This document shows positions 295 through 18,628 of a stretch of 23,457 nucleotides of DNA, piece by piece. The translations under genes and the position numbers were made by a program. This DNA is from Streptomyces sp. NRRL S-118 (GTDB lineage Bacteria; Actinomycetota; Actinomycetes; Streptomycetales; Streptomycetaceae). Numbering within the stretch: the first letter of the stretch is position 1; each line of letters opens with the position of its first letter. Location of the stretch: NCBI RefSeq assembly GCF_000716335.1, contig NZ_KL591003.1, positions 1 through 23,457 of the forward strand. Direction: 5' to 3'. A model generated the notes under the pieces. It was not told the DNA's origin and ran no database searches. It was given only the letters and a program-made list of their open reading frames with translations.

Positions 295-1167
295 TCACCC
301 GCCGCAGCCGCCGCACCCTCCTCCGCCACCGCAGCCGCCCCCTCCGGACGACGGGCGCTCGTGCGCCTTGCGGATCACGCGGCGCAGTCTCTTGTCCTGA
401 ATGCCGTGCGTCCCGAACAGGGCTACGCCGACCGCTTCCGGATCGGTGTGGTCCTGGGCGTGCGTGCAGGCCGGGGCGTCCACCCAGGAGGAGCGGTCCA
501 GATGACGGTGGGCTTCCCGCAGCCGTGCCAGGGCCGCGGCGCCCGCCGGGGTCAGCCGGCCCTGCGGCGTGAACCGGTCGAAGGGCGCAAGGAAGAGGCC
601 CGCCACCAGCAGCGCGAACGCCAGCAGCGAGGTGGCGTTCAGCCAGGCTGCCGATCCGCCCTTGCCGGCGGCGGCGAAGGGCCCGAGGAAAGCGGACACC
701 AGACAGACCGCGAGGTGCCACCGCCAGGCCCGTCGCCACGCCCGCAGAGGCGGGAGCGGCCGCAACAACCCCTCCTCGACGAGTCCCTGGTCCAGGGCCT
801 TCATCCGACCGGACGTCACCAGCGCCTCGTGCAGTTGGTGCACCCTCGTCTCGCCTCCGGCTGTCTCCTCCCGCACGAGAAGGTGCAGGCGTTCCGTGCC
901 GTACGCCTCGCTCTCGCCCGCCCGGGCCCTCTTCCCGTCCAGGACGAGGAGCCCGGCCTGGTGCATCCGGACGAGCACCGTGTCCGCGACGCGTTCTGGA
1001 CCGCCGGCGAGCAGCGCCATGGCGAGGGTATCGGTCGGGTCGGGCGGGTCGGCCATGTCCGTTGCCCCCACCGGCGCACGCCCCTGGAACCGTCTGCCCA
1101 CCAGCAGGATCAGTGTCGCCCCGCCCGCCACGAGCGGTACGAGCCACGTCAGACCGCCGTCGTACAC
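295..1167 (-). CDS. TIGR04222 domain-containing membrane protein
   Basis: This 290-residue protein of unknown function starts at a GTG that lies inside the last codons of the kinase gene, a 19-base overlap. A GGAAGG ribosome site sits about 8 bases upstream of that GTG. The protein opens with a membrane segment (about residues 5-22). A cytoplasmic stretch with a TIGR04222-type core follows (the region containing LAMALLAGGPERV and the Arg-Leu-Thr-Pro-Ala-Gly stretch). A hydrophobic pair of helices lies near residues 160-205. The protein ends in the hallmark Gly/Cys-rich tail, in which single Cys residues are spaced by runs of Gly. Known family members are actinobacterial membrane proteins with no proven role. 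The overlap makes translational coupling to the kinase likely, so it may act in the same signalling unit; that is inference. Confidence 0.88.
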   Translation of the reverse strand: MYDGGLTWLVPLVAGGATLILLVGRRFQGRAPVGATDMADPPDPTDTLAMALLAGGPERVADTVLVRMHQAGLLVLDGKRARAGESEAYGTERLHLLVREETAGGETRVHQLHEALVTSGRMKALDQGLVEEGLLRPLPPLRAWRRAWRWHLAVCLVSAFLGPFAAAGKGGSAAWLNATSLLAFALLVAGLFLAPFDRFTPQGRLTPAGAAALARLREAHRHLDRSSWVDAPACTHAQDHTDPEAVGVALFGTHGIQDKRLRRVIRKAHERPSSGGGGCGGGGGCGGCGG

Positions 1168-3011
1168 AGCACGTTCCTTCCCCCGTCGACCTCTAAGGTC
1201 CAGTAGATGTTCCGGTCGTCCCGGCTGCGTGAGCAATACCCGGCCGGATAGAACGTCCGGGCCTTGTGGTAGCCGGTGATCTGCAGCACGGTGTTGAAGC
1301 CATGGGGGACCTCGGTCGCGTCGCAGTTCCAGAGATTCAGGGTCCGCGACGCGGTGATCGTGCGGCCGCTGCGCTTGGCCACGAAGCACTGGCCCTTGCG
1401 GAACTGGCGCTCCACGCAGAGCGTGGTGGCGAAGGAGGAGCGCGAGCCGGAGTGGTACCAGTAGCTGCGACCGTTGCCGGAGGGGCAGTCCGCGAAGTCG
1501 ATGCCCTCGCTCGCCGAGGTCACGCGCAGATATGCGTTGGCGGCGGAGCAGCCGACCGTCTGCGGGGTCCTCGTCGACCAGGATGCATGGCCGTCGTCGT
1601 ACGCGGTGAGACAGTCGCCGCTGTCGACCGCGCGGAAGGCCAGGTCCACGGCGTCCGGTGCAGGGGTCGGCGCGGAGGTGTGCCGGGAGTCGGAGCCGTA
1701 CGAGGAGTCGTAGGTGGAGCGCGACGAGGACGAACCGCTGCGCGTCGAGCCGGAGTCCTCGGCGTTCGCCTGGTAGATGAAGAACACCACGACCGCCAAC
1801 AGGATGAATCCGAACCATCCGCCGTCGCCCTTTCCCGCCGCTGGTGCGGGTGCCGGTGCCGGGGCCGGTGATGAACGTGGCGGCGCCGGCGTACTGGCCG
1901 AGGAAGCAGCGGGCGGCTTCCGGGCGGCGCCGGCGCGCCTGAGCTTTTCCTCCTGTGCGGCGAGGGCCGCGGCCATGGAAGCCTGCGCAGCCCGCGCCCG
2001 TTCGGCACGCCGTGCCCGCTCCTCCGGGAGCACGCGGGTCGGGTCCGGCGGTGGGAGCGCGCTCGTCCTCTGGTCCACGGTCGGCCCTTCGGCCTCCCCC
2101 GTCTCCTGGAAGCTGCGCCCCTGGCTCTCGTACGCCCTGATCAGCTCCGTCCACCGCGGCGGCAACCAGCGGCTGCCGCTGGGGGTGTTCGGCAGGCCGG
2201 AGAGCGAGGCGGTGAACTGCTCGAGGACCTCGGCCGGTTCGGGCCTGGCGGCCGGATCGGGCGCCAGGCACGGACGGATCAGCGGAGCCAGCTCCTTCGA
2301 CAGCCCACCGAGATCCAGGTCGGCGCGCTGGACGCGGGAAAGCAACCGCAGCGTGTCCCCGTCCATCGGGTAAGGCGGCCGGCCCACGGCGAGGTGGAAG
2401 AGGGTCGCACCGAGCGAGTAGACGTCCGCCGCCGCCGTCGACTCCTCGCCCCTCGCCTGCTCCGGCGAGGTGAACGCGATGGTCCCCAGCGTCAGCTGGG
2501 TCCGGGTGAGATCGCTGGCGTGCGAAATGCCGAAATCGATCAGGCGTGGCCCATCCAGCGGCAACAGGACGTTCTGCGGCTTCACGTCCCGGTGGACGAT
2601 GCCCATCCGGTGCAGGGTGACCAGCGCCTCCGCCGTGCCGGCTGCGACCCACCGTACGGCCGAGGCCTGCAGCACGCCCTTCGCGCTCACCAGCTCCGCC
2701 AGCGAGGGAGCGGCGATGTACTCTATCGCCATCCACGGCCGGTCGGCCGTGGCGTCCGCGTCCAGCACCTGAGCCGTGTGGACGCTGGACACCCGCTGGG
2801 CGAGCGCGACTTCCCGCGCGAAGCGACGGCGGTCGGTCTCCTCGACAACCCCCTCGGCAAGCAGTGTCTTCACGGCGACGAGCCGTCCTCCGCGCGTGCG
2901 GCCGAGATAGACACGCCCCATGCCGCCCGAGCCGAGCCGGCCGAGCAGCCGGTAGCGACCGAGCTGACGTGGATCGTCCCCACGCAGTTCCTCTACGCGC
3001 GCCCCCGTCAT
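1149..3011 (-). CDS. Transmembrane Ser/Thr protein kinase with LppU-like extracellular domain
   Basis: This is a 620-residue Hanks-type kinase that should phosphorylate proteins on Ser/Thr at the membrane. ATG 3011 was chosen because GGGGGAGG lies 6 bases upstream; an in-frame start 36 bases further up has no such site. Visible kinase elements are the Gly loop (GSGGMG, residues 27-32), Lys48, the likely helix-C Glu67, the catalytic HRDVKPQN (140-147) and DFG (159-161). A Pro-rich linker with an Ala/Arg/Glu-rich, probably coiled-coil stretch follows. One transmembrane helix lies near residues 398-413. The outer part is Ser-rich and then Cys-rich, with about eight Cys that probably form disulfides, and resembles LppU/SCO3897-type domains. 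There are no PASTA repeats, so the ligand is unlikely to be muropeptide as in PknB. It overlaps the downstream TIGR04222 gene, and its start overlaps the stop of a small upstream frame. Confidence 0.95.
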
Positions 3012-3337
3012 GCCGTACCTCCCCCGTGGTACCGGTCCCGTCTCCACAGTGACACGAGGGAGGCGGCTCGGACACGGTGCTTTTCCGTCCCGGACAGGGT
3101 CGGGACAGGGCGTTCACTCAATCGATACCAACTCGCGCATCGCTGGCACGCCTTGCCCTCGATCACCTGGTCGGGCCGGTGGAAGCCGCAGCCGGAGGAC
3201 GAGTCCGAGTACATCTCGCGCGTGCAGCCGAAGATCTTCCGCTGCGCGCACCACAGGTGGTCCCCGATCGACCCGTCCGTGCTGCAGCGGTGCAGGTCGG
3301 TGGACCTCTCGACGGTGGAGCCGTTACTCGCGGCCAT
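3008..3337 (-). CDS. Small Cys-rich hypothetical protein, possibly a gene remnant
   Basis: This is a possible 109-residue protein of unrecognised family. From the ATG at 3337 down to about 3145 almost every codon ends in G or C, as in real genes here. The peptide contains six to seven Cys (HRC, WCA, GCT, GCG, ACQRC) that could bind zinc or form disulfides. After about 3145 the codon bias is lost, which suggests a frameshift, a truncated gene or a wrong end. The frame stops in an ATGA overlap with the kinase start codon, the signature of translational coupling. No strong ribosome site precedes 3337, and an upstream GTG at 3403 is also possible. It may be the tail of a decayed gene rather than a functional one. 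Confidence 0.4.
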
Positions 3338-4784: not shown

Positions 4785-5516
4785 TCACTTGGTGAGTCGG
4801 CGGTAGCCGATGAGGGCTGCGGCTGTGCCGACGAAGGCCAGGAAGTGTTCGGCCGTGCGTTCGTATCGGCGGTGCAGTCGGCGGCAGCCGACCAGCCAGG
4901 AGACCGTTCTCTCGACGACCCAGCGGTGTCGGCCGAGCCGCGTGGACGACTCGATGCCCTTGCGGGCGATGCGGTGGCGGATGCGACGCTCGCGAAGCCA
5001 TTTCCGCAGGTGGCCGTAGTCGTATCCCTTGTCGGCATGAAGCTTGGCCGGACGCCGGCGGCGGGGTCCGCGGCGGGAGCGGACGGGCGGGATCCCGCGC
5101 ACGAGCGGCTGCAGGCCGAGGCTGTCGTGCACGTTGGCGCCGGAGATGCCCAGCGACAGCGGCACGCCATTCCGGTCGGTGATCAGGTGGATTTTCGATC
5201 CTGCCTTGCCGCGGTCGGTCGGATCGGCCGCGAGGTCGCCGCCGTGGTCTTCGGGGCCGTTCGCGGCCAGCGGCCGCAGCCACAGGTCGGCATGGGACTG
5301 CACGACCTGGGCGTAGGGTCGGTAGTCGGTGACGGTGCCGCACTGTCCGCCGGCGCCGTCGGTGCTGCGGCGTCCGGTCCAGTTGCTCGACAGCCACCGG
5401 TGGCGCCGGCAGACCTCCAGCCGGTAGTCCACCGACCGGTCGTGTGCGCGGACGCGGCGTTCGATGACAACGGTCGACGGCTCGGTGCATGTGGTGATCT
5501 GGCGCAGGACCGGCAC
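4785..5516 (-). pseudogene. IS5-family transposase, 5' part lost or scrambled
   Basis: From about residue 95 to its end (243), the frame is a clear IS5-family DDE transposase. It shows the conserved DRGKAGSKIHL stretch, the second catalytic Asp in HADKGYDY (Asp162), and the catalytic Glu in RHRWVVERT (Glu202). The CRRLHRRYER region and the usual RRLTK end follow. Residues 1-90 do not match the normal N-terminal half: no helix-turn-helix-like start and no first catalytic Asp context could be found in any of the three minus frames. The expected full length is about 270-290 residues. It is therefore most likely inactive, a truncated and shifted copy, and it lies convergent to the P450 with only 8 bases between the two stop codons. 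Confidence 0.8.
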
Positions 5517-10945: not shown

Positions 10946-11304
10946 CCGAGCATCCCCCTCTTTCCGGCAGGCATCCTCCCCTGGCCGGAAAGGCACGTCG
11001 CCGCGGGGTCCCGTATGCGTGACGTCAAGCCGGCCCGGCGCGTCCGCCGCCCGGACCGGCCAGGCCCACCCGTACCGCAAGTTGCTTCGTTTTCGGCCAG
11101 GCATAGCGAAATAATTGCGGTCAATTTTGCGATGGTCGCCAAAATGATCCATCATCGTGACCGCGCGTCAGATTCCGGGCGCTGCAGGGGCGGGGGGCTC
11201 GGGGGTCTCCCCGCACACCGTTCGATCCCGCAGGCGGCGAGTTCGTGGTCTCGCCATGCCGCGGTGACTCCCACCCTGTTCCTTTTCACCTAGGCAAAGG
11301 CCGC
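10946..11304. other. Divergent intergenic region upstream of the reductase operon
   Basis: These 359 bases separate the starts of the minus-strand membrane protein and the plus-strand operon and must hold both promoters. Most of it is GC-rich, but 11100-11160 is clearly AT-richer, with short dyads listed separately. No small gene with a ribosome site was found. No clear sigma-70 promoter pair could be fixed. Confidence 0.6.
11100..11155. promoter_or_regulatory. AT-rich dyad region, candidate operator/promoter
   Basis: Within a GC-rich setting this segment has runs of A and T and two inverted repeats. One is ATTTTG-N10-CAAAAT (11124-11145) and the other ATGAT-CC-ATCAT (11144-11155). On the minus strand TTGACC (11118-11123) looks like a -35 element pointing to the membrane protein gene. 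The location between divergent genes fits an operator for a regulator that is not encoded in this window. Confidence 0.4.
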
Positions 11305-12576
11305 ATGTCCGCCCATCAGCTATCGGACCTCGTACGTTTCGCTCGTCACAACTCCCCCTTCTACCGGGATCTCTACGCGTCCCTGCCGCCGGACGCCGAC
11401 CGCCTCACCGACCTTCCGGTGGTCGACCAGCAGGAGTTCTGGGCGGCCAACACCCTCCACCACAACCGCGTCCTGACCGGGCCCCTGAGCGAGGCGACGG
11501 TCTACAAGACCGGTGGTACCACCGGGGCGCCCAAGTTCTCCGTCTACACCCGGGACGAGTGGCGCACCTTCGTGAGCGTCTTCGGCCAGGGACTGGTGGA
11601 CGCCGGCCTGCGTCCGGGGCACCGTGTCGCGGACCTGTTCTACGCCGGTGAGCTCTACGCCAGTTTCCTCTTCGTCCTCGACTCACTCGCCGCCTGCCCC
11701 GTCGACAACGTCCGGCTGCCGATCGGCGGCGCCGCGCCCCTGGAGACGACGGTTCCCACGCTGCGCGACTTCGCCGCCCAGGTCGTGGCCGGAACGCCGA
11801 CGACGCTGTGCCGGCTGGCCGAGCACCTGATCGCGGCCGGTCTGCGGCTGGACGCCGTGGAGCTGGTCCTCTTCGGCGGCGAGGCGCTCTTCGCCGACCA
11901 GCGGCGCCTGCTCGCCGCCGCGTTCCCCAACGCCGAGGCGCGGTCCGTCGGTTACGCCAGTGTCGATGCGGGCCTGCTCGGGCGTCCCGTGCCGGGTCCC
12001 GACGCGCGCGTGCACCGCGCCTTCACGCCGCACTCGATCGTGGAGATCCTCGATGACGCGACGGGCGAGCCCGTCACGGAACCGGGGCGGCCCGGCCGCG
12101 TCGTCGTCACGAGCCTCTTCCGCCGTCTCATGCCCGTCATCCGCTATCCGGCGGGCGACCGCGCCGAGTGGACCGACACCGCGGCCGGTCACTTCCGCAT
12201 CCTCGGACGCTCCGAGGAAGGCGTACGCGTGGGGCCCGTGTCGCTGTACGCGCAGGACGCGCAGGACGCCGTGGCCGACGCGGACGCCGCCGGACGGATC
12301 GTGGGCACGCAGCTGGTCGTCCGTCGCTGGAAGGGCCGCGACGGGCTGGTGCTGCGGCTGGCCACCGCTCCGGGCGACGACGACCCGGCCGGTCTGGAGC
12401 CGCTCGCCAAGGCGGTGGTCACCGAGCTGGAGAACGCCCGGCCGCTGTACCCGGACAGTGTCCGTGCCGGCTTCGTGCACCCGCTCGCCGTGGAGTGGGT
12501 GCGCCACCGCGACCTCGCCGTCAACCCGCGTACGGGCAAGCTCGTCCGCGTACTGGACGAGAGGCCGACGGCATGA
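11305..12576 (+). CDS. PaaK/F390-synthetase-like adenylate-forming enzyme
   Basis: This 423-residue enzyme of the phenylacetate-CoA ligase / coenzyme F390 synthetase branch of the ANL superfamily should activate a carboxylic acid with ATP. ATG 11305 follows AAAGG by 5 bases. Visible motifs are the phosphate-binding TGGTTGAPK (residues 69-77), ELVLFGGEAL near 190, VGYASVD near 215 and RYPAGDRAEW. The small C-terminal domain ends in NPRTGKLVRVL, with the Lys expected for adenylation. It lacks the Cys pair that often follows the GD motif in this group and is present in the two related proteins of this operon. The grixazone enzyme GriD belongs to the same branch and works with a LuxC-like reductase. 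The substrate is unknown, perhaps an aryl or short acyl acid. It is the first gene of a five-gene coupled operon. Confidence 0.9.
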   Translation: MSAHQLSDLVRFARHNSPFYRDLYASLPPDADRLTDLPVVDQQEFWAANTLHHNRVLTGPLSEATVYKTGGTTGAPKFSVYTRDEWRTFVSVFGQGLVDAGLRPGHRVADLFYAGELYASFLFVLDSLAACPVDNVRLPIGGAAPLETTVPTLRDFAAQVVAGTPTTLCRLAEHLIAAGLRLDAVELVLFGGEALFADQRRLLAAAFPNAEARSVGYASVDAGLLGRPVPGPDARVHRAFTPHSIVEILDDATGEPVTEPGRPGRVVVTSLFRRLMPVIRYPAGDRAEWTDTAAGHFRILGRSEEGVRVGPVSLYAQDAQDAVADADAAGRIVGTQLVVRRWKGRDGLVLRLATAPGDDDPAGLEPLAKAVVTELENARPLYPDSVRAGFVHPLAVEWVRHRDLAVNPRTGKLVRVLDERPTA

Positions 12577-13934
12577 CCCGCTGCCGGACGGACAGCGCCG
12601 CGCCCACGCCCGCGCCCATATCCATGCCCGCGCCCGTGACGGCTCCAGAGCCCGCGCTGCCTCCCGCGCCCGAGGGCCGGCGGCTGCCGCTCGTCCTGCG
12701 CAACCGGGCCTTCGGTGCCGTATGGCTCGGGCAGGTGCTGACGCAGGCCGCCGTCCGCATGTTCCAGGTCGGCGTCTCGTGGTGGCTGGTCGCCTACGCC
12801 GTCGACGGCGCGCCGGGCCTGGCCTCCGGGCTGTTCATGGCCGTCAGCACGCTGCCGGCTGTGGCCCTGGCCCCGGTCGTGGCCCGGGCGGTGGCCCGGA
12901 ACGCCCACCGGTCCGTCCTGCGGACGACCGCCGGGGTGGCGGGCATCGTCGCCGCCGCGCTGGCCGCCTGGGCCTGGACGAGTGGCCTGCCGCTGCCGGC
13001 CGCCTACGCCGCGGCGCTCGCCCTCGCCACCTGTCAGGCCTTCTTCGATCCCTGTCTGACCACCTCGGTGCCCGAACTCGTCGATGACGAGGACATCGAG
13101 ACGGCGACCGGCTTCGAGCTGTCCACGCAGTCCCTGGCCGGACTCGGAGGGGCGCTGCTCGGTGCCCTGGTCGTCGACCGGGCAGGGGTGGCCGGCCTCG
13201 CCGCCGGCTGCGCCGCCGCCTACGGCACGGCCGCGCTGCTCATCTCGGGCGTACGCTTCCGCACCCCCGCCGCGTCCGGTGCCGCCGACGGTGACCCGGG
13301 GGCGGCGCCCGGCGGGCGGACCCTGCGCCGCATCCTGGCCGAGCTGCCCTACGTGCGGCGGATCCTGGTCTGCTTCACGGTGGCCAATCTCTTCACCACG
13401 GCCGTCTTCGTGGTCATCCCGCTCTACACCCGGTCGGTGCTGGCCGAGGGCGGCGGGACGGTCGCGCTGCTGGAGGCGTCCCTGGGCGTGGGCACGCTCG
13501 TCGGTTCGTTCACCGGCGCGCGGGTGCCGGGCCGGCCCACCGTCACCGGCGCGTACTGCCTGGGGCTGATGGCCCTCGCGCTGGCCCTGCCGGGGCTGGT
13601 CGCCGGGCGTCTGGTCCTCGCGGGCTGCCTGGCGGTGGCCGGCTGGTGCGTGGGCGTCATCGGAGTCCGGTTCGTGTCCCTGTTCCAGCGACTGGTGCCC
13701 GCCGCCGACAAGCCCGGCTTCTTCGCCGTGATGCAGGCCGTGCTGGGGGCGACGTTCCCCGTCGGCTCGTTGCTGTTCGGACTCGCCGGGGACCACGTGT
13801 CGGCGCAGACGCTGTGCCTGGTGCAGGCCGCCGGTCTGGTGCCCGCCGCCTGCGCCCTGGCACTTCTGGGCGCACCGGAGTCCGTGGGGCCGGTGGGCGA
13901 GCCCCGGCCCGCGACCGTCGGAGGCGGACGGTGA
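12573..13934 (+). CDS. MFS transporter, probable exporter
   Basis: This is a 453-residue major facilitator protein of the MFS_3 type (EntS-like exporters), with about 12 hydrophobic helices. After a Pro/Ala-rich cytoplasmic start of about 35 residues, the first helices follow LRNRAFGAVWLGQVLTQAA. A charged central loop (after FRTPAASGAADG) precedes TLRRILAELPYVRR and the second half. The ATG overlaps the stop of the preceding gene (ATGA), and GAGAGG lies about 8 bases upstream. Its place inside a biosynthetic operon suggests export of the pathway product, which may also give self-resistance. Direction and substrate are inferred. Confidence 0.93.
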   Translation: MTRCRTDSAAPTPAPISMPAPVTAPEPALPPAPEGRRLPLVLRNRAFGAVWLGQVLTQAAVRMFQVGVSWWLVAYAVDGAPGLASGLFMAVSTLPAVALAPVVARAVARNAHRSVLRTTAGVAGIVAAALAAWAWTSGLPLPAAYAAALALATCQAFFDPCLTTSVPELVDDEDIETATGFELSTQSLAGLGGALLGALVVDRAGVAGLAAGCAAAYGTAALLISGVRFRTPAASGAADGDPGAAPGGRTLRRILAELPYVRRILVCFTVANLFTTAVFVVIPLYTRSVLAEGGGTVALLEASLGVGTLVGSFTGARVPGRPTVTGAYCLGLMALALALPGLVAGRLVLAGCLAVAGWCVGVIGVRFVSLFQRLVPAADKPGFFAVMQAVLGATFPVGSLLFGLAGDHVSAQTLCLVQAAGLVPAACALALLGAPESVGPVGEPRPATVGGGR

Positions 13935-15067
13935 ACGCCCTGATCGCACCGGCCCGCGCCTCGGACATCGCCGAGCTGCGCCAGCTGTACTACGCCGTCT
14001 ACGGGCCCCACTACCCCACCGCCCTCGGCACCGATCCCGCCGCGATGGCCCGGCTCATCCAGGACCCGCATACGCTGTGGCTCGTCGCCCGCTGCCCGGA
14101 CACCGGCGCCCTGGCCGCGTCGGCCGCCGTCCATGGCGAGCCGGGCAGCGGCATCGGCCGTCTGGAAGGGCTCGCGGTGCACCCCGACCACCGGTCCGGT
14201 GGCCTGGCCGCCCGCCTGACGGAGGCGCTGTGCGCGGGGACGCTGGACGCGGGGCGGCTGGACTCGGTGTACGCCACCGTCCGTACCGTCAGCGCGGGCC
14301 CGCAGCGCGCCGTCGCGCGCAACGGCTTCCGTCCGCTGGGCATCCTGCCGAACGCGGTCGACCTGAGCAGCCGTGAGAGCCTCGCCCTCTACGCGCGTCA
14401 CCGTCCCGGCGTACTGGAACGGCGCTTCCCCGTGCCCGAGGTGCCCGCCCCGCTGCTGCCGCTCCTGCGGACCGTCGAGCGCGGACTGGGCGTGCGGTAC
14501 GACGGCACGCGGGCCGTGGCCCCGGCGCCCGTGACCGGGGACGGGGCGGCCGAGCACCTGGAGATGATCGAGGCCCCCGCCTTCGTACGCCGGCGCTTCC
14601 GCGAGCGGTTCCCGGATGCGGGCGGCTGGTTCTATCCGCTGCACACGCCCAATGCGCTGCTCACTCCGGAGGACGGGCGGTTCGAGGTGTACGCCTACCT
14701 CAACCGCACCGGACGGTACTGCTCGCTCGTCGCCGCCCACCCCGATCCGGCCGCCGCGGCCGGGTACCTGGAGCCCGTCACCCGTGCCCTGACCCGGGCG
14801 GGCGCCGGCTATGTCGAGGCGCTGGTGCCGCTGTCGCACCACGGGGCGCTCTCGGCCTTCCTGGCCCAGGGTTTCGTGGCCGGCGCGCTCTACCCGGCGA
14901 TGCGGCGGGAGGGGGACGGTTTCCACGACCACGTCGTCCTGTCCCGTTCCACCGAGCGGATCGACTTCCGTGACGTCGTCGTCGAACCGGCCCTCCAGCC
15001 GTATCTGGACTGCTATTCGTCGGCCTGGGCGTCGACGTACCTGCCCACACTCGAGGTTGCCTCATGA
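13931..15067 (+). CDS. GNAT-family acyltransferase with two GNAT-like halves
   Basis: This is a 378-residue protein starting at GTG in a GTGA overlap with the transporter gene, with GGAGGCG upstream. The N-terminal half (about 1-130) is a clear GNAT fold. It opens with IAPARASDIAELRQLYYAVYG, and LEGLAVHPDHRSGGLA (78-93) is the acyl-CoA pyrophosphate loop. The second half (about 210-350) looks like another, degenerate GNAT domain that lacks the R/QxxGxG/A loop, with RFEVYAYLNRTGRYCSLVAAH and GYVEALVPLSHHGALSAFLAQGF. It probably transfers an acyl group from CoA or from a carrier to an amine on the pathway intermediate. A role in acyl capture next to LuxE/LuxC is plausible. The acceptor is unknown. 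Confidence 0.88.
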   Translation: MNALIAPARASDIAELRQLYYAVYGPHYPTALGTDPAAMARLIQDPHTLWLVARCPDTGALAASAAVHGEPGSGIGRLEGLAVHPDHRSGGLAARLTEALCAGTLDAGRLDSVYATVRTVSAGPQRAVARNGFRPLGILPNAVDLSSRESLALYARHRPGVLERRFPVPEVPAPLLPLLRTVERGLGVRYDGTRAVAPAPVTGDGAAEHLEMIEAPAFVRRRFRERFPDAGGWFYPLHTPNALLTPEDGRFEVYAYLNRTGRYCSLVAAHPDPAAAAGYLEPVTRALTRAGAGYVEALVPLSHHGALSAFLAQGFVAGALYPAMRREGDGFHDHVVLSRSTERIDFRDVVVEPALQPYLDCYSSAWASTYLPTLEVAS

Positions 15068-16212
15068 ACCCTCATCTCGCCCCCGTCGGTGTCCCCGACC
15101 CCGCCCTGCTGCCGCATGTGCAGCGACTGTGCGACCTGGCCGACCCGTACGCCCACGGGCCCGCCGAGGACGAGCTGTTCGCCGCGGCCATGGCGGAGAT
15201 CAACGCCTGGCACACGGACCGGTCGCCGTTCTTCCGTTCCCTGTACGAGGCGACGCCGCCCGCGCGGCCGTACCGCACGCCGCTGGTGCACGCCAACTTC
15301 TTCAAGCGCCACGAGGTGCTGTCCATCCCGCGTGACGAGGTCGAGCTGCATCTGACGTCCTCGGGCACCACGGGGCAGAAGTCGCAGATGTTCTTCGACC
15401 GGTGGACCATCCGCTCCGCGCAGCGCATGGTGGCCCGGATCTTCGAGCGCAACGGCTGGATCACCCCCGAGCAGGAGGTCAACTACCTGCTCTACAGCTA
15501 CGAGCCGGCGCCCGCGCTCAACCTCGGCACCGCCTTCACCGACAACTACCTGTGCGACTTCGCGCCGGCCCGCACGGTCGAGTACGCGCTGCGCAACACC
15601 GGGGACGGCCACGAGTTCGATCCCTTCGGGTGTGTGGCGGCGCTGCGGCGCTTCGAGCGGGACGACGCCCCGGTCCGCATCCTGGGCTTCCCCGCCTTCC
15701 TCTTCTTCACCCTGGAGCGGATGCGGGCCATGGGCCTGCCGCCGCTCCGCCTGCCCGAGGGCTCGCTCGTGGTCCTCGGCGGAGGCTGGAAGGGGCACGC
15801 GGACCGGCGCATCGGCAAGGAGGAGCTGTACGCCCGCGTGACCGAGCAGCTGGGCGTCCCGGGTGAGCGCATCCGCGACACGTTCGGTTCGGTCGAGCAC
15901 TGCATCCCGTACATCGAGTGCGACCACCACCGTCTGCACGCACCCGTCTGGTCGCGCGTCACCGTCCGTTCCACGCGGACGCTCGAGCCGCTGCCGTACG
16001 GCGAGACGGGCTATCTGCACCTGGTGTCGCCGTACATCACCTCCGTACCGGCGCAGAGCGTCGTCATGGGCGACCTCGCCTCCCTGCACCCCGGGGACGC
16101 GTGCGGATGCGAGCTGGGCACCGACTGGTTCACCGTCCACGGCCGCGCCGGGGTGAGCCGCAACCGAAGCTGCGCGGTGGCCGCCGCCGAGCTGATGAAG
16201 GGAATGTCATGA
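15064..16212 (+). CDS. LuxE-like acyl-protein synthetase
   Basis: This 382-residue enzyme resembles LuxE, the subunit of the bioluminescence fatty acid reductase complex that makes acyl-AMP and takes the acyl group onto a Cys before the LuxC reductase. Visible motifs are SSGTTGQKS (99-107), the stretch YEPAPALNLGTAFTDNYL, VVLGGGWKGH near 240, DTFGSVEHCIPY near 275 and MGDLASLHPG. A Cys pair (ACGC) follows and resembles a zinc site. Cys370 in NRSC near the C-terminus lies where LuxE proteins carry the acylated Cys; this is positional inference. It starts in ATGA and ends in ATGA, coupled to the reductase gene. The length equals that of typical LuxE. No luciferase luxA/luxB is present. Confidence 0.93.
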   Translation: MNPHLAPVGVPDPALLPHVQRLCDLADPYAHGPAEDELFAAAMAEINAWHTDRSPFFRSLYEATPPARPYRTPLVHANFFKRHEVLSIPRDEVELHLTSSGTTGQKSQMFFDRWTIRSAQRMVARIFERNGWITPEQEVNYLLYSYEPAPALNLGTAFTDNYLCDFAPARTVEYALRNTGDGHEFDPFGCVAALRRFERDDAPVRILGFPAFLFFTLERMRAMGLPPLRLPEGSLVVLGGGWKGHADRRIGKEELYARVTEQLGVPGERIRDTFGSVEHCIPYIECDHHRLHAPVWSRVTVRSTRTLEPLPYGETGYLHLVSPYITSVPAQSVVMGDLASLHPGDACGCELGTDWFTVHGRAGVSRNRSCAVAAAELMKGMS

Positions 16213-18628
16213 CGACCGTGCAGCCGCACGCCGCCGCCGAACACCACTACTGGCAGGGGGCCTTCATCGGCGACGAGGAGGCCGGGCGCCGCCTGGCCGC
16301 CCTGCCCGAGGCGGTCGAGAGCGCACTCGGTACGCCGCTGGAGACGGAGACCCTGCTGGCCGCGTGCGACGCCCTGGCGAGCGCCCTGCTCGACCCCGGG
16401 CACCCGGTGCGCGCCCGGCTCCTGCCCCATCTGCCCGAGGGCGAGGACCCGGCGGTCCTCGCCGAGCTCGGGGGCATGCTCGGCCGCCGGGAGCTCACGC
16501 GCAAGCTGCGCCGCGAGCTCGGCGGCGCCGCCCCGCAGCGGCTGAACCGTCCCGACGCCCGCGAGACCGTGTACGAGGCGTGGGCACCCGTCGGGCTGGT
16601 CGCGCACGTCGCACCGGGCAACGCCGCGACCGTCGCGCCGCTCAGCGTCGTCGAGGGGCTGCTCGCGGGCAACGTCAACGTCCTGAAGACCAGCAGCGGT
16701 GACACGCTGTTCACGCAGCATCTGCTGGCCGAGCTCGCCGCGCTGGACGCGACCGGTGCCATGGCCGCGCGCGTCGTCGTGCTGCGTTTCCCGTCCTCGC
16801 GGCAGGAGTGGCTGCGCCTGATGTGCGCGCCGGCCGACGCCGTCGCCGTGTGGGGCGGCGAGGGCGCGGTGGAGGGAGTCGCCGCCCATGTGCCGCCGGG
16901 CTGCCGCCTGGTGGAGTGGGGGCACCGCATCTCCTTCGCCTACCTCACGCGCGACGCGTGGGACGACGCGGCCACGCTGGACGCCCTGGTGGACGACGTC
17001 TGCCTCTACGAGCAGCAGGCGTGCGCCAGTCCTCAGGTGGTGTACCTCGACACGGAGTCCGACGCGGAGGTCTTCGCGTTCGCGGAGCGTTTCGCGGGTG
17101 TGCTGGCGGCACGGGGCCCGGCCCCAGCCGATCAGAGCCCGGATCTGGCGGAGGAGGCGGAGCTGACGACGACCGAGCTGATCGCGCGGCTGGAGGAACA
17201 CCTCGGGCTGACCCGGGTGTTCGCCGCCGACGACGGCTCGTGGCGGGTCATGGCCGACACCCGTCCGGCGCTCACCGCCTCCCCGCTGCACCGCAGCGTC
17301 TGGGTCAAGCCGCTGCCCCGGAAGCGGCTGATCGGCACGCTGCGCCCCATGCGACGTTACTTGCAGACCGCGGGCCTGGCGGGCAGCCGTACCGACATCT
17401 CCGAGCTCTCGCGTCTCGCCCTGGCCGCGGGCGTCACCCGGGTCACGCCCGTCGGCACCATGCACACCAGCTACTCCGGCGAGCCGCACGACGGGGTGTA
17501 CGCGCTCCAGCGCTACAGCCGCCGCGTGGCCGTGCGGGCGGACGAGCGGTTCGCCACCACCGCCTGCCTGGACGACCTGGCCCGTCCGGTCGTCCTTCCC
17601 CCACCCACCGGTCCGCTGCTCGGCAAGGAGGAGGTGCAGGAGCGGGCCGGGCAGGTCGCGCGCGCCGACGCCGAGTTGTACTTCCGCAGCGGCGGCACCA
17701 CGGGCGCGCCCGCCCTGTCGCTGTTCAGTTACGACGACTACGACACCCAGATGCACGCCGCCGCCCGAGGGCTGCTCGCCGCGGGTTACGACCCGCTGCG
17801 CGACCGTACGGCGAACCTCTTCTACTGCGGTGGCATGTACGGCAGTTTCATCAGCTTCTTCTCCATCCTGGAGCGGCTGGGCGGCGTCCAGCTGCCCCTG
17901 GCGGCCGGTCCCGATCACCGGGCCACGGCCGAGGCGCTGATCGCGCACGAGGCGGACACGCTCTTCGGGATGCCGTCGTACCTGTGGCAGCTGCTGCACG
18001 ACCAGGCCGACGCGCTGCGCGCGTACGGCGGCATCCGCAAGATCTTCTACGGCGGTGAGCAGTTCACCGACGAGCAGCGGCGCACGCTGAAGGAGGCCTT
18101 CGGCGTCGAGGTCGTCCGCTCCCTCACGTACGGCAGCACCGATCTCGGGCCGCTCGGCTACCAGTGCACCGAGAGCAGCGGCGGTGTGCACCACCTCCAC
18201 GCCGACCTGCACACGATGGAGATCCTCGAGCTCGACTCGGACAGGCCGGTGCCGGCCGGGGAGACGGGCCGCCTGGTCTTCAGCACCCATGCGCGGCGCG
18301 GCCAGGACCTGGGCCGTTACGTCATCGGCGACCTCGGCCGGGCCGTGCCCGGGCGCTGCGCCTGCGGCAGTCACGCCCCGCGCTTCGAGCTGCGCGGCCG
18401 GCTGGGCGACGTGATGCGGGTCGCCACGTACTTCCTCAACCACCGGCGTTTCGTGGCCCTCGCGGAGGAGAGCGGCTACCGGGGTGAGCTCCAGATCGTG
18501 CTCGTCGGGCAGGACGCCCGCGAGCGGCTCACCGTCCGCGTGGAGCGGTCGAGTCGGTGGACGGTTCGTCGCTGGACCGCAGTCCGACGAGCGGCAAGCT
18601 GCGCTGTGTGGTGGACACGCGGGGGTAG
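16209..18628 (+). CDS. LuxC-like acyl reductase fused to a PaaK-like adenylation domain, frameshifted near 3' end
   Basis: Residues 1 to about 470 are a LuxC-type acyl reductase that should take an activated acyl group on Cys272 (QQACASPQ) and reduce it with NAD(P)H to an aldehyde. VGLVAHVAPGNAATVAPLS and NVNVLKTSSGDTLF are typical. Residues from about 485 on form an AMP-ligase domain with RSGGTTGAPA (P-loop, about 491-500), FYGGEQF, SLTYGSTDLG and a zinc-like Cys pair (CACG). In the LuxC/LuxE and GriC/GriD systems these two activities are on separate chains. After LTVRVE (18545) the frame is wrong. In the -1 frame AVESVDGSSLDRSP followed by SGKLRCVVDTRG ends at TAG 18628, the normal family end with the catalytic Lys. 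Comparison with the first operon gene suggests that about 35-40 residues are missing. Without correction the frame would run to 19076, over the next gene's start. Confidence 0.85.

Follow-up and report, generated by a model that had tools for sequence, protein, structure and literature searches.

Leupeptin, a peptide aldehyde, is widely used as a standard laboratory protease inhibitor. In Gammaproteobacteria (Klebsiella michiganensis/oxytoca, Photorhabdus and Xenorhabdus), the leupeptin operon is described as leupABCD with an adjacent transporter (PMC8283571, PMC11480411, PMC11212599; papers are cited throughout from excerpts of their text), and X. bovienii is described as making the compound with separate AMP-dependent ligases and a reductase (PMC11212599). 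Leupeptin was first reported from actinomycetes in 1969 (via PMC10548850), and that of Streptomyces was still listed in 2023 as the product of a nonribosomal peptide synthetase (NRPS) (PMC10548850). Here we describe a five-gene operon of Streptomyces sp. NRRL S-118, located in the first 23,457 bases (hereafter the window) of the 555-kb contig NZ_KL591003.1, which belongs to a 7.9-Mb draft assembly of 114 contigs. We consider it likely that this operon is the Streptomyces form of a leup-type, NRPS-free peptide-aldehyde pathway, with leupeptin or a close analogue as its most likely product.

The genes, A to E, occupy positions 11305-18628 on one strand, with a 4-nt overlap at every neighbouring pair:

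11305..12576, + strand: gene A, PaaK-type adenylate-forming ligase, 423 aa (PF00501, 35.5 bits)
12573..13934, + strand: gene B, MFS transporter, 453 aa (PF07690, 51 bits; PF05977, 27.8 bits)
13931..15067, + strand: gene C, tandem GNAT N-acyltransferase, 378 aa, GTG start (PF00583, 29.5 bits)
15064..16212, + strand: gene D, LuxE-type acyl-protein synthetase, 382 aa (PF04443, 87.4 bits)
16209..18628, + strand: gene E, LuxC reductase fused to a PaaK-type adenylation domain (PF05893, 302.8 bits; PF00501, 33.6 bits)

An earlier note on this DNA had named an adenylating enzyme, an MFS protein, a two-domain GNAT, a LuxE-like protein and a LuxC/adenylation fusion here, and the Pfam matches bear out all five. 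Its statement that the region holds no luciferase, polyketide synthase (PKS) or NRPS likewise stands for the 19 open reading frames (ORFs) of the window scanned with Pfam, among which there was also no acyl carrier and no NRPS with a terminal thioester reductase. The operon frames have a third-position guanine-plus-cytosine fraction of ~0.9, and the five-gene pattern is not one of chance open frames: a scan for relatives that kept one genome per species gave 77 loci, all from Streptomyces and Kitasatospora apart from two records under other names (L024, L044), and all modules stand in the same order in 72 of them. The nearest relatives, L003 (S. lavendofoliae) and L004, have every module but the MFS gene, which is absent between A and C; in L013, L032 and L065 the locus starts at the end of a contig.

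Relatedness to leupABCD

The leupABCD genes of strain CAV1374 are placed at 315353-321183 (5831 nt), beside a transporter, in a paper that prints two primers (PMC8283571). The leupB_r primer translates to EQLKDH, a peptide found in 66 of the 362 proteins compared, which are LuxC/PaaK fusions of 777-802 aa, from Klebsiella where named; one frame of the leupA_f primer gives EDSDSQ, found in a single protein of the 362, the LuxE P0260. If EQLKDH is taken as codon 47 onward, the fusion would start at 316482, 1129 nt past the published start of the locus, and this spacing fits a 375-aa LuxE gene (as printed, the leupA primer falls two letters short of the site given for it, so the match is good to ~2 nt). 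Read from these primer peptides, leupA would be a LuxE-type gene and leupB a LuxC/PaaK fusion; a GNAT or an ATP-grasp ligase, also considered for leupA, was set aside, as the peptides fit LuxE and the fusion instead. On a Salmonella plasmid, genes for LuxE, the fusion, PaaK and GNAT follow one another over 5759 nt, against 5831 nt for leupABCD, and from this order and length we infer that leupC is the PaaK gene and leupD the GNAT gene.

Such leup-like sets of LuxE, LuxC/PaaK, PaaK and GNAT genes occur on two Salmonella enterica plasmids (L080 and L084; CP053580.1 and CP054717.1), which are conjugative and IncF-type, and the sets adjoin recombinase and transposase genes. The GNAT of L080 lies in two frames, and the upstream MFS-like ORF there is short. 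When the Salmonella operon DNA was used as a query against E. coli genomes, only its transposase end was found among the matches listed and no record covered 80% of the query; the Klebsiella fusion had no match in viral contigs.

The window proteins resemble those of the leup operons to different degrees. Gene D is 52.8% identical over 373 aa to P0260, the carrier of the leupA primer peptide, 52-54% identical to the LuxE proteins of Photorhabdus and X. bovienii, and, across the leup-type LuxE proteins of Proteobacteria in the comparison, 50-56% identical; gene E is 40.4% identical over 745 aa to P0138, a Klebsiella fusion containing the peptide of the leupB primer, and gene A is 39.9% identical to the PaaK-type gene that stands beside LuxE and LuxC/PaaK on the Salmonella plasmid. 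These figures also bear on whether the operon makes a fatty or aryl aldehyde in the manner of lux or GriC/GriD, the precedents named in the earlier note. Membership in the LuxE and LuxC families fits such a pathway, but the LuxE proteins of plasmid-borne systems in Rhizobium, Azospirillum, Priestia and the like are only 23-28% identical to gene D, and the scanned ORFs of the window hold neither an acyl carrier nor a luciferase; we regard it as very improbable. A LuxE tree with a Rhizobium and Priestia outgroup was not used as evidence, because its branches, 8 to 10 changes per column long, leave the root unreliable; the S. cattleyicolor and Azospirillum rows had been left out of it.

Core motifs and cysteines of catalytic type are also retained. 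Gene A has the motifs TGGTTGAP and RTGKL and gene D has SSGTTGQK; the core motifs are present in all three adenylation domains, with the end motif of gene E out of frame. In gene E the LuxC domain covers approximately residues 46-438 and is followed by the AMP-binding domain. The cysteine of its QQACASPQ motif aligns with that of the LuxC in 7xc6, as does the LuxE cysteine with its counterpart there, and both the LuxC cysteine and the C-terminal RSCA cysteine of gene D are kept in the gammaproteobacterial relatives aligned; we take these two cysteines to be the acyl-group carriers. For gene C, an AlphaFold2 model (predicted local distance difference test, 83.9; predicted template modelling score, 0.84) was compared by Foldseek, which placed the clavulanate tandem GNAT 2wpw first, with the histidine acetyltransferases 9en3, 9emp and 9emd also among the matches, at low whole-chain template modelling scores of 0.30-0.37; many single GNATs were matched too. 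The model supports a tandem GNAT fold, not a substrate.

Proposed pathway and a possible wider module

Leupeptin is acetyl- or propionyl-Leu-Leu-argininal, a structure that calls for a single N-acylation, the formation of two amide bonds and, at the C-terminal acid, activation followed by reduction. These steps are matched in number by the GNAT, the two PaaK-type domains, LuxE and LuxC of the operon, which also has a transporter, and the sequences suggest the following route:

(i) The tandem GNAT (gene C) would N-acylate leucine from acetyl- or propionyl-coenzyme A.

(ii) One PaaK-type domain, that of gene A or the C-terminal one of gene E, would adenylate acyl-Leu and join it to a second leucine.

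(iii) The other PaaK-type domain would join acyl-Leu-Leu to arginine; the two domains may be assigned to the two amide bonds either way round.

(iv) LuxE (gene D) would adenylate the tripeptide acid and pass it, via its own C-terminal cysteine, to the cysteine of LuxC.

(v) LuxC (gene E) would reduce the thioester with NAD(P)H, giving the argininal.

(vi) The MFS protein (gene B) would export the product.

The earlier note had three acid-activating domains feeding one reductase. In the route above LuxE alone is expected to do so, and the other two domains match the two peptide bonds of acyl-Leu-Leu-argininal. What the note had inferred about aldehyde chemistry, acylation of an amine, export and the absence of PKS and NRPS appears right in kind, whereas its description of the pathway as undescribed is not supported, since homologous operons match the characterised leupeptin operon, with chemistry of the same kind. 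A literature search on the enzymology of a leupeptin acid synthetase returned nothing relevant among the matches listed.

More tentatively, and with somewhat greater doubt than belief, we suggest that the cassette is the missing leupeptin pathway of Streptomyces, and that it belongs to a LuxE/LuxC branch specialised in peptide C-termini, a portable acid-to-aldehyde module also taken up by a ribosomal-peptide cluster. The cluster in question is on an S. europaeiscabiei plasmid (L082, NZ_CP109155.1, 3061-11519), where a 51-aa ORF (a candidate precursor) and an MbnB/TglH/ChrH-type (MNIO) gene are followed directly by a LuxE 50% identical to gene D and a stand-alone LuxC 43% identical to the LuxC domain of gene E. 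A metallo-beta-lactamase-fold gene and a YcaO-nitroreductase gene are its neighbours. The product of this cluster may be a ribosomal peptide with a C-terminal aldehyde formed by reduction.

Reported producers and the state of gene E

Two strains reported to make leupeptin carry the whole cassette. S. roseus ATCC 31245, used as a leupeptin producer (PMC10548850), is among the relatives (L043) and has all five genes at 75-84% identity to those of the window; S. cattleya DSM 46488, for which the leupeptin family is reported by mass spectrometry (MS) annotation (PMC12235219), has all five at 57-76% identity on the pSCAT plasmid record (NRRL 8057 = DSM 46488, S. cattleya/S. cattleyicolor). Other links hold at species level only: S. 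virginiae (L009), with an ion at m/z 427.3032 that was called tentative; S. anandii (L072), with leupeptin as a metabolomics match; S. xanthophaeus (L016), with acetyl- and propionyl-leucylleucine in a mutant; and S. cattleya, through strain RLe1. A conserved five-gene operon in reported producers is a direct candidate for the leupeptin genes of Streptomyces. Among the matches listed, none of the papers connected a LuxE/LuxC operon with leupeptin in Streptomyces; Li et al. 2020, the study behind the gammaproteobacterial leupABCD operon, may already show it.

The same strains bear on whether the machinery is used with other residues, giving an N-acyl peptide aldehyde that differs from leupeptin in its amino acids or its acyl group. 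Leupeptin producers are reported to make Leu-Val-Arg, lysinal, propionyl and strepin-like analogues as well (PMC12235219, PMC5511137), and identity between the window proteins and their counterparts in the two producer strains is just 57-84%, with the GNAT diverging most there (57% in S. cattleyicolor). The window is nonetheless nearer to S. roseus than to S. cattleyicolor, and both are reported leupeptin makers; we hold a product of this kind to be unlikely, and leupeptin or a close analogue to be the better candidate.

An NRPS route was also considered for these strains. The S. roseus assembly has no thioester-reductase domain over the curated cut-off (best match 66.5 bits against 213 bits), and the best partial match there is an epimerase/3-beta-HSD-type domain (866 of the 1657 aa of the frame scanned), so that an NRPS route in S. 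roseus was set aside. Among the five genomes searched for a thioester reductase, one over the cut-off was found only in the window's own, at G000:C2:73764-74795, outside the window; of the 4123-aa open frame that holds it, 855 aa were scanned and contain ketoreductase and carrier-protein domains, which makes a PKS-like product with reductive release likely.

Several points weigh against the leupeptin assignment. The identities of leupC and leupD were deduced from gene order and length, and gene C resembles the Salmonella GNAT weakly (25% over 173 aa, E 1e-5, in a two-sequence comparison). The links between cassette and producers are correlations, and the S. cattleya leupeptins are MS annotations. 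A reported producer, S. griseochromogenes DSM 40499 (PMC12235219), lies outside the 77 loci, and its genome was not examined; in S. anandii (L072) a split thioester-reductase match falls just under the cut-off, at 194 bits. The leupeptin of another Streptomyces strain was credited in 2024 to the antipain NRPS (PMC11212599), so more than one leupeptin route may exist in Streptomyces. Lastly, gene E of the window is interrupted:

18539..18553, + strand: deletion junction in gene E, 97 nt lost out of frame (alignment with five relatives)

No single open frame spans gene E up to 18628, a point that the earlier note does not mention. The frame with the LuxC domain and most of the adenylation domain continues out of register to 19076, and the expected end of the protein (...SPTSGKLRCVVDTRG), with the SGKL-motif lid, lies in another frame, which stops at 18628. 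Aligned with the five relatives, the gene is missing 97 nt near 18540, where the frame shifts, and in L003 and L004 the stretch that the window lacks is flanked by copies of CGGTC. With the lid of its adenylation domain out of frame, this copy may be impaired or, provided that the draft assembly is correct at this point, inactive.

Whether the operon of this strain has decayed and lost the ability to make its product is, in our judgement, evenly balanced, and such decay would not exclude leupeptin as what intact copies make. Besides the deletion itself, decay is favoured by the rarity of a split E, seen only in L058 among the 77 relatives (in L031 the gene runs off the contig; six other flagged rows have a longer tail than the search pattern allowed, with the GK motif visible in them), and by the genome having no LuxC over the cut-off besides that of the window. 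On the other side, the four other genes and the LuxC domain remain open, an assembly of 114 contigs could be in error at gene E, and loss of the lid may leave an adenylation domain partly active.

Neighbouring features and known systems

Around the operon, conservation falls away. The commonest flank family occurs in 14 of 78 loci once operon genes and overlapping frames are excluded, in a rough survey whose ORF picker missed many genes, and flanking genes were on this count rejected as members of the pathway. On the 5' side the window has a protein kinase (1149-3047, - strand), a cytochrome P450 (3442-4776, + strand) and a fragment of a DDE transposase (4785-5516, - strand). Closer to the operon, ~150 nt upstream of gene A, is a palindrome:

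11158..11170, strand-neutral: TGAC-N5-GTCA, a possible operator upstream of gene A

Of 76 loci, 36 have a match to TGAC-N5-GTCA in the 300 nt upstream, against an expectation of 0.006 per 300 nt from the same loci; the match in L026 is a different site, and the more distant loci are without the palindrome. A leader peptide before gene A was considered and rejected: the residues of the conserved stretch vary, which makes a possible operator the likelier reading, although an unproven one.

A strong relative of the GNAT (E < 1e-50) is present in 34 of 295 genomes of a genus sample, the window's own included, three of these being divergent or split, and relaxing the threshold to E 0.001 raises the count to 51, the additional matches being weak. 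In a class sample, LuxE was found at E 1e-30 in 7 of 394 genomes, all of the window's genus and its own among them. One genome with an 83% identical GNAT has a second relative at 41% identity (G168:C48:6870-7952), possibly from a paralogous cassette.

Among the systems described, leupABCD is the closest. It shares with the window LuxE (leupA) and the LuxC/PaaK fusion (leupB), as judged from the primer peptides, and probably also PaaK and transporter genes and perhaps a GNAT gene, with no NRPS in either; the adjacent transporter may correspond to the MFS protein of gene B. The two differ in order, with LuxE first in Gammaproteobacteria and PaaK and MFS first in Streptomyces, and in sequence, where LuxE and the fusion are 40-53% identical, the GNATs are hardly alike (25%) and gene E of the window is broken. 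The LuxE and LuxC of bioluminescence (7xc6) belong to the same families, with cysteines that align, but are remote (52 and 58 bits), and the window differs from lux in its PaaK-type fusion, its separate PaaK and GNAT genes and the lack of a luciferase in the ORFs scanned. Antipain, MAPI and other such compounds of Streptomyces (PMC10548850, PMC11212599) are of the same class of peptide aldehyde protease inhibitors and are made by NRPS, whereas the window operon has separate ligases with LuxE and LuxC. The livipeptin genes of S. lividans 66 (PMC10548850) offer another compact route, to a proposed N-acylated Leu-argininal and likewise with an N-acyltransferase, but they are described as using a tRNA-utilising enzyme and a C-minus NRPS.

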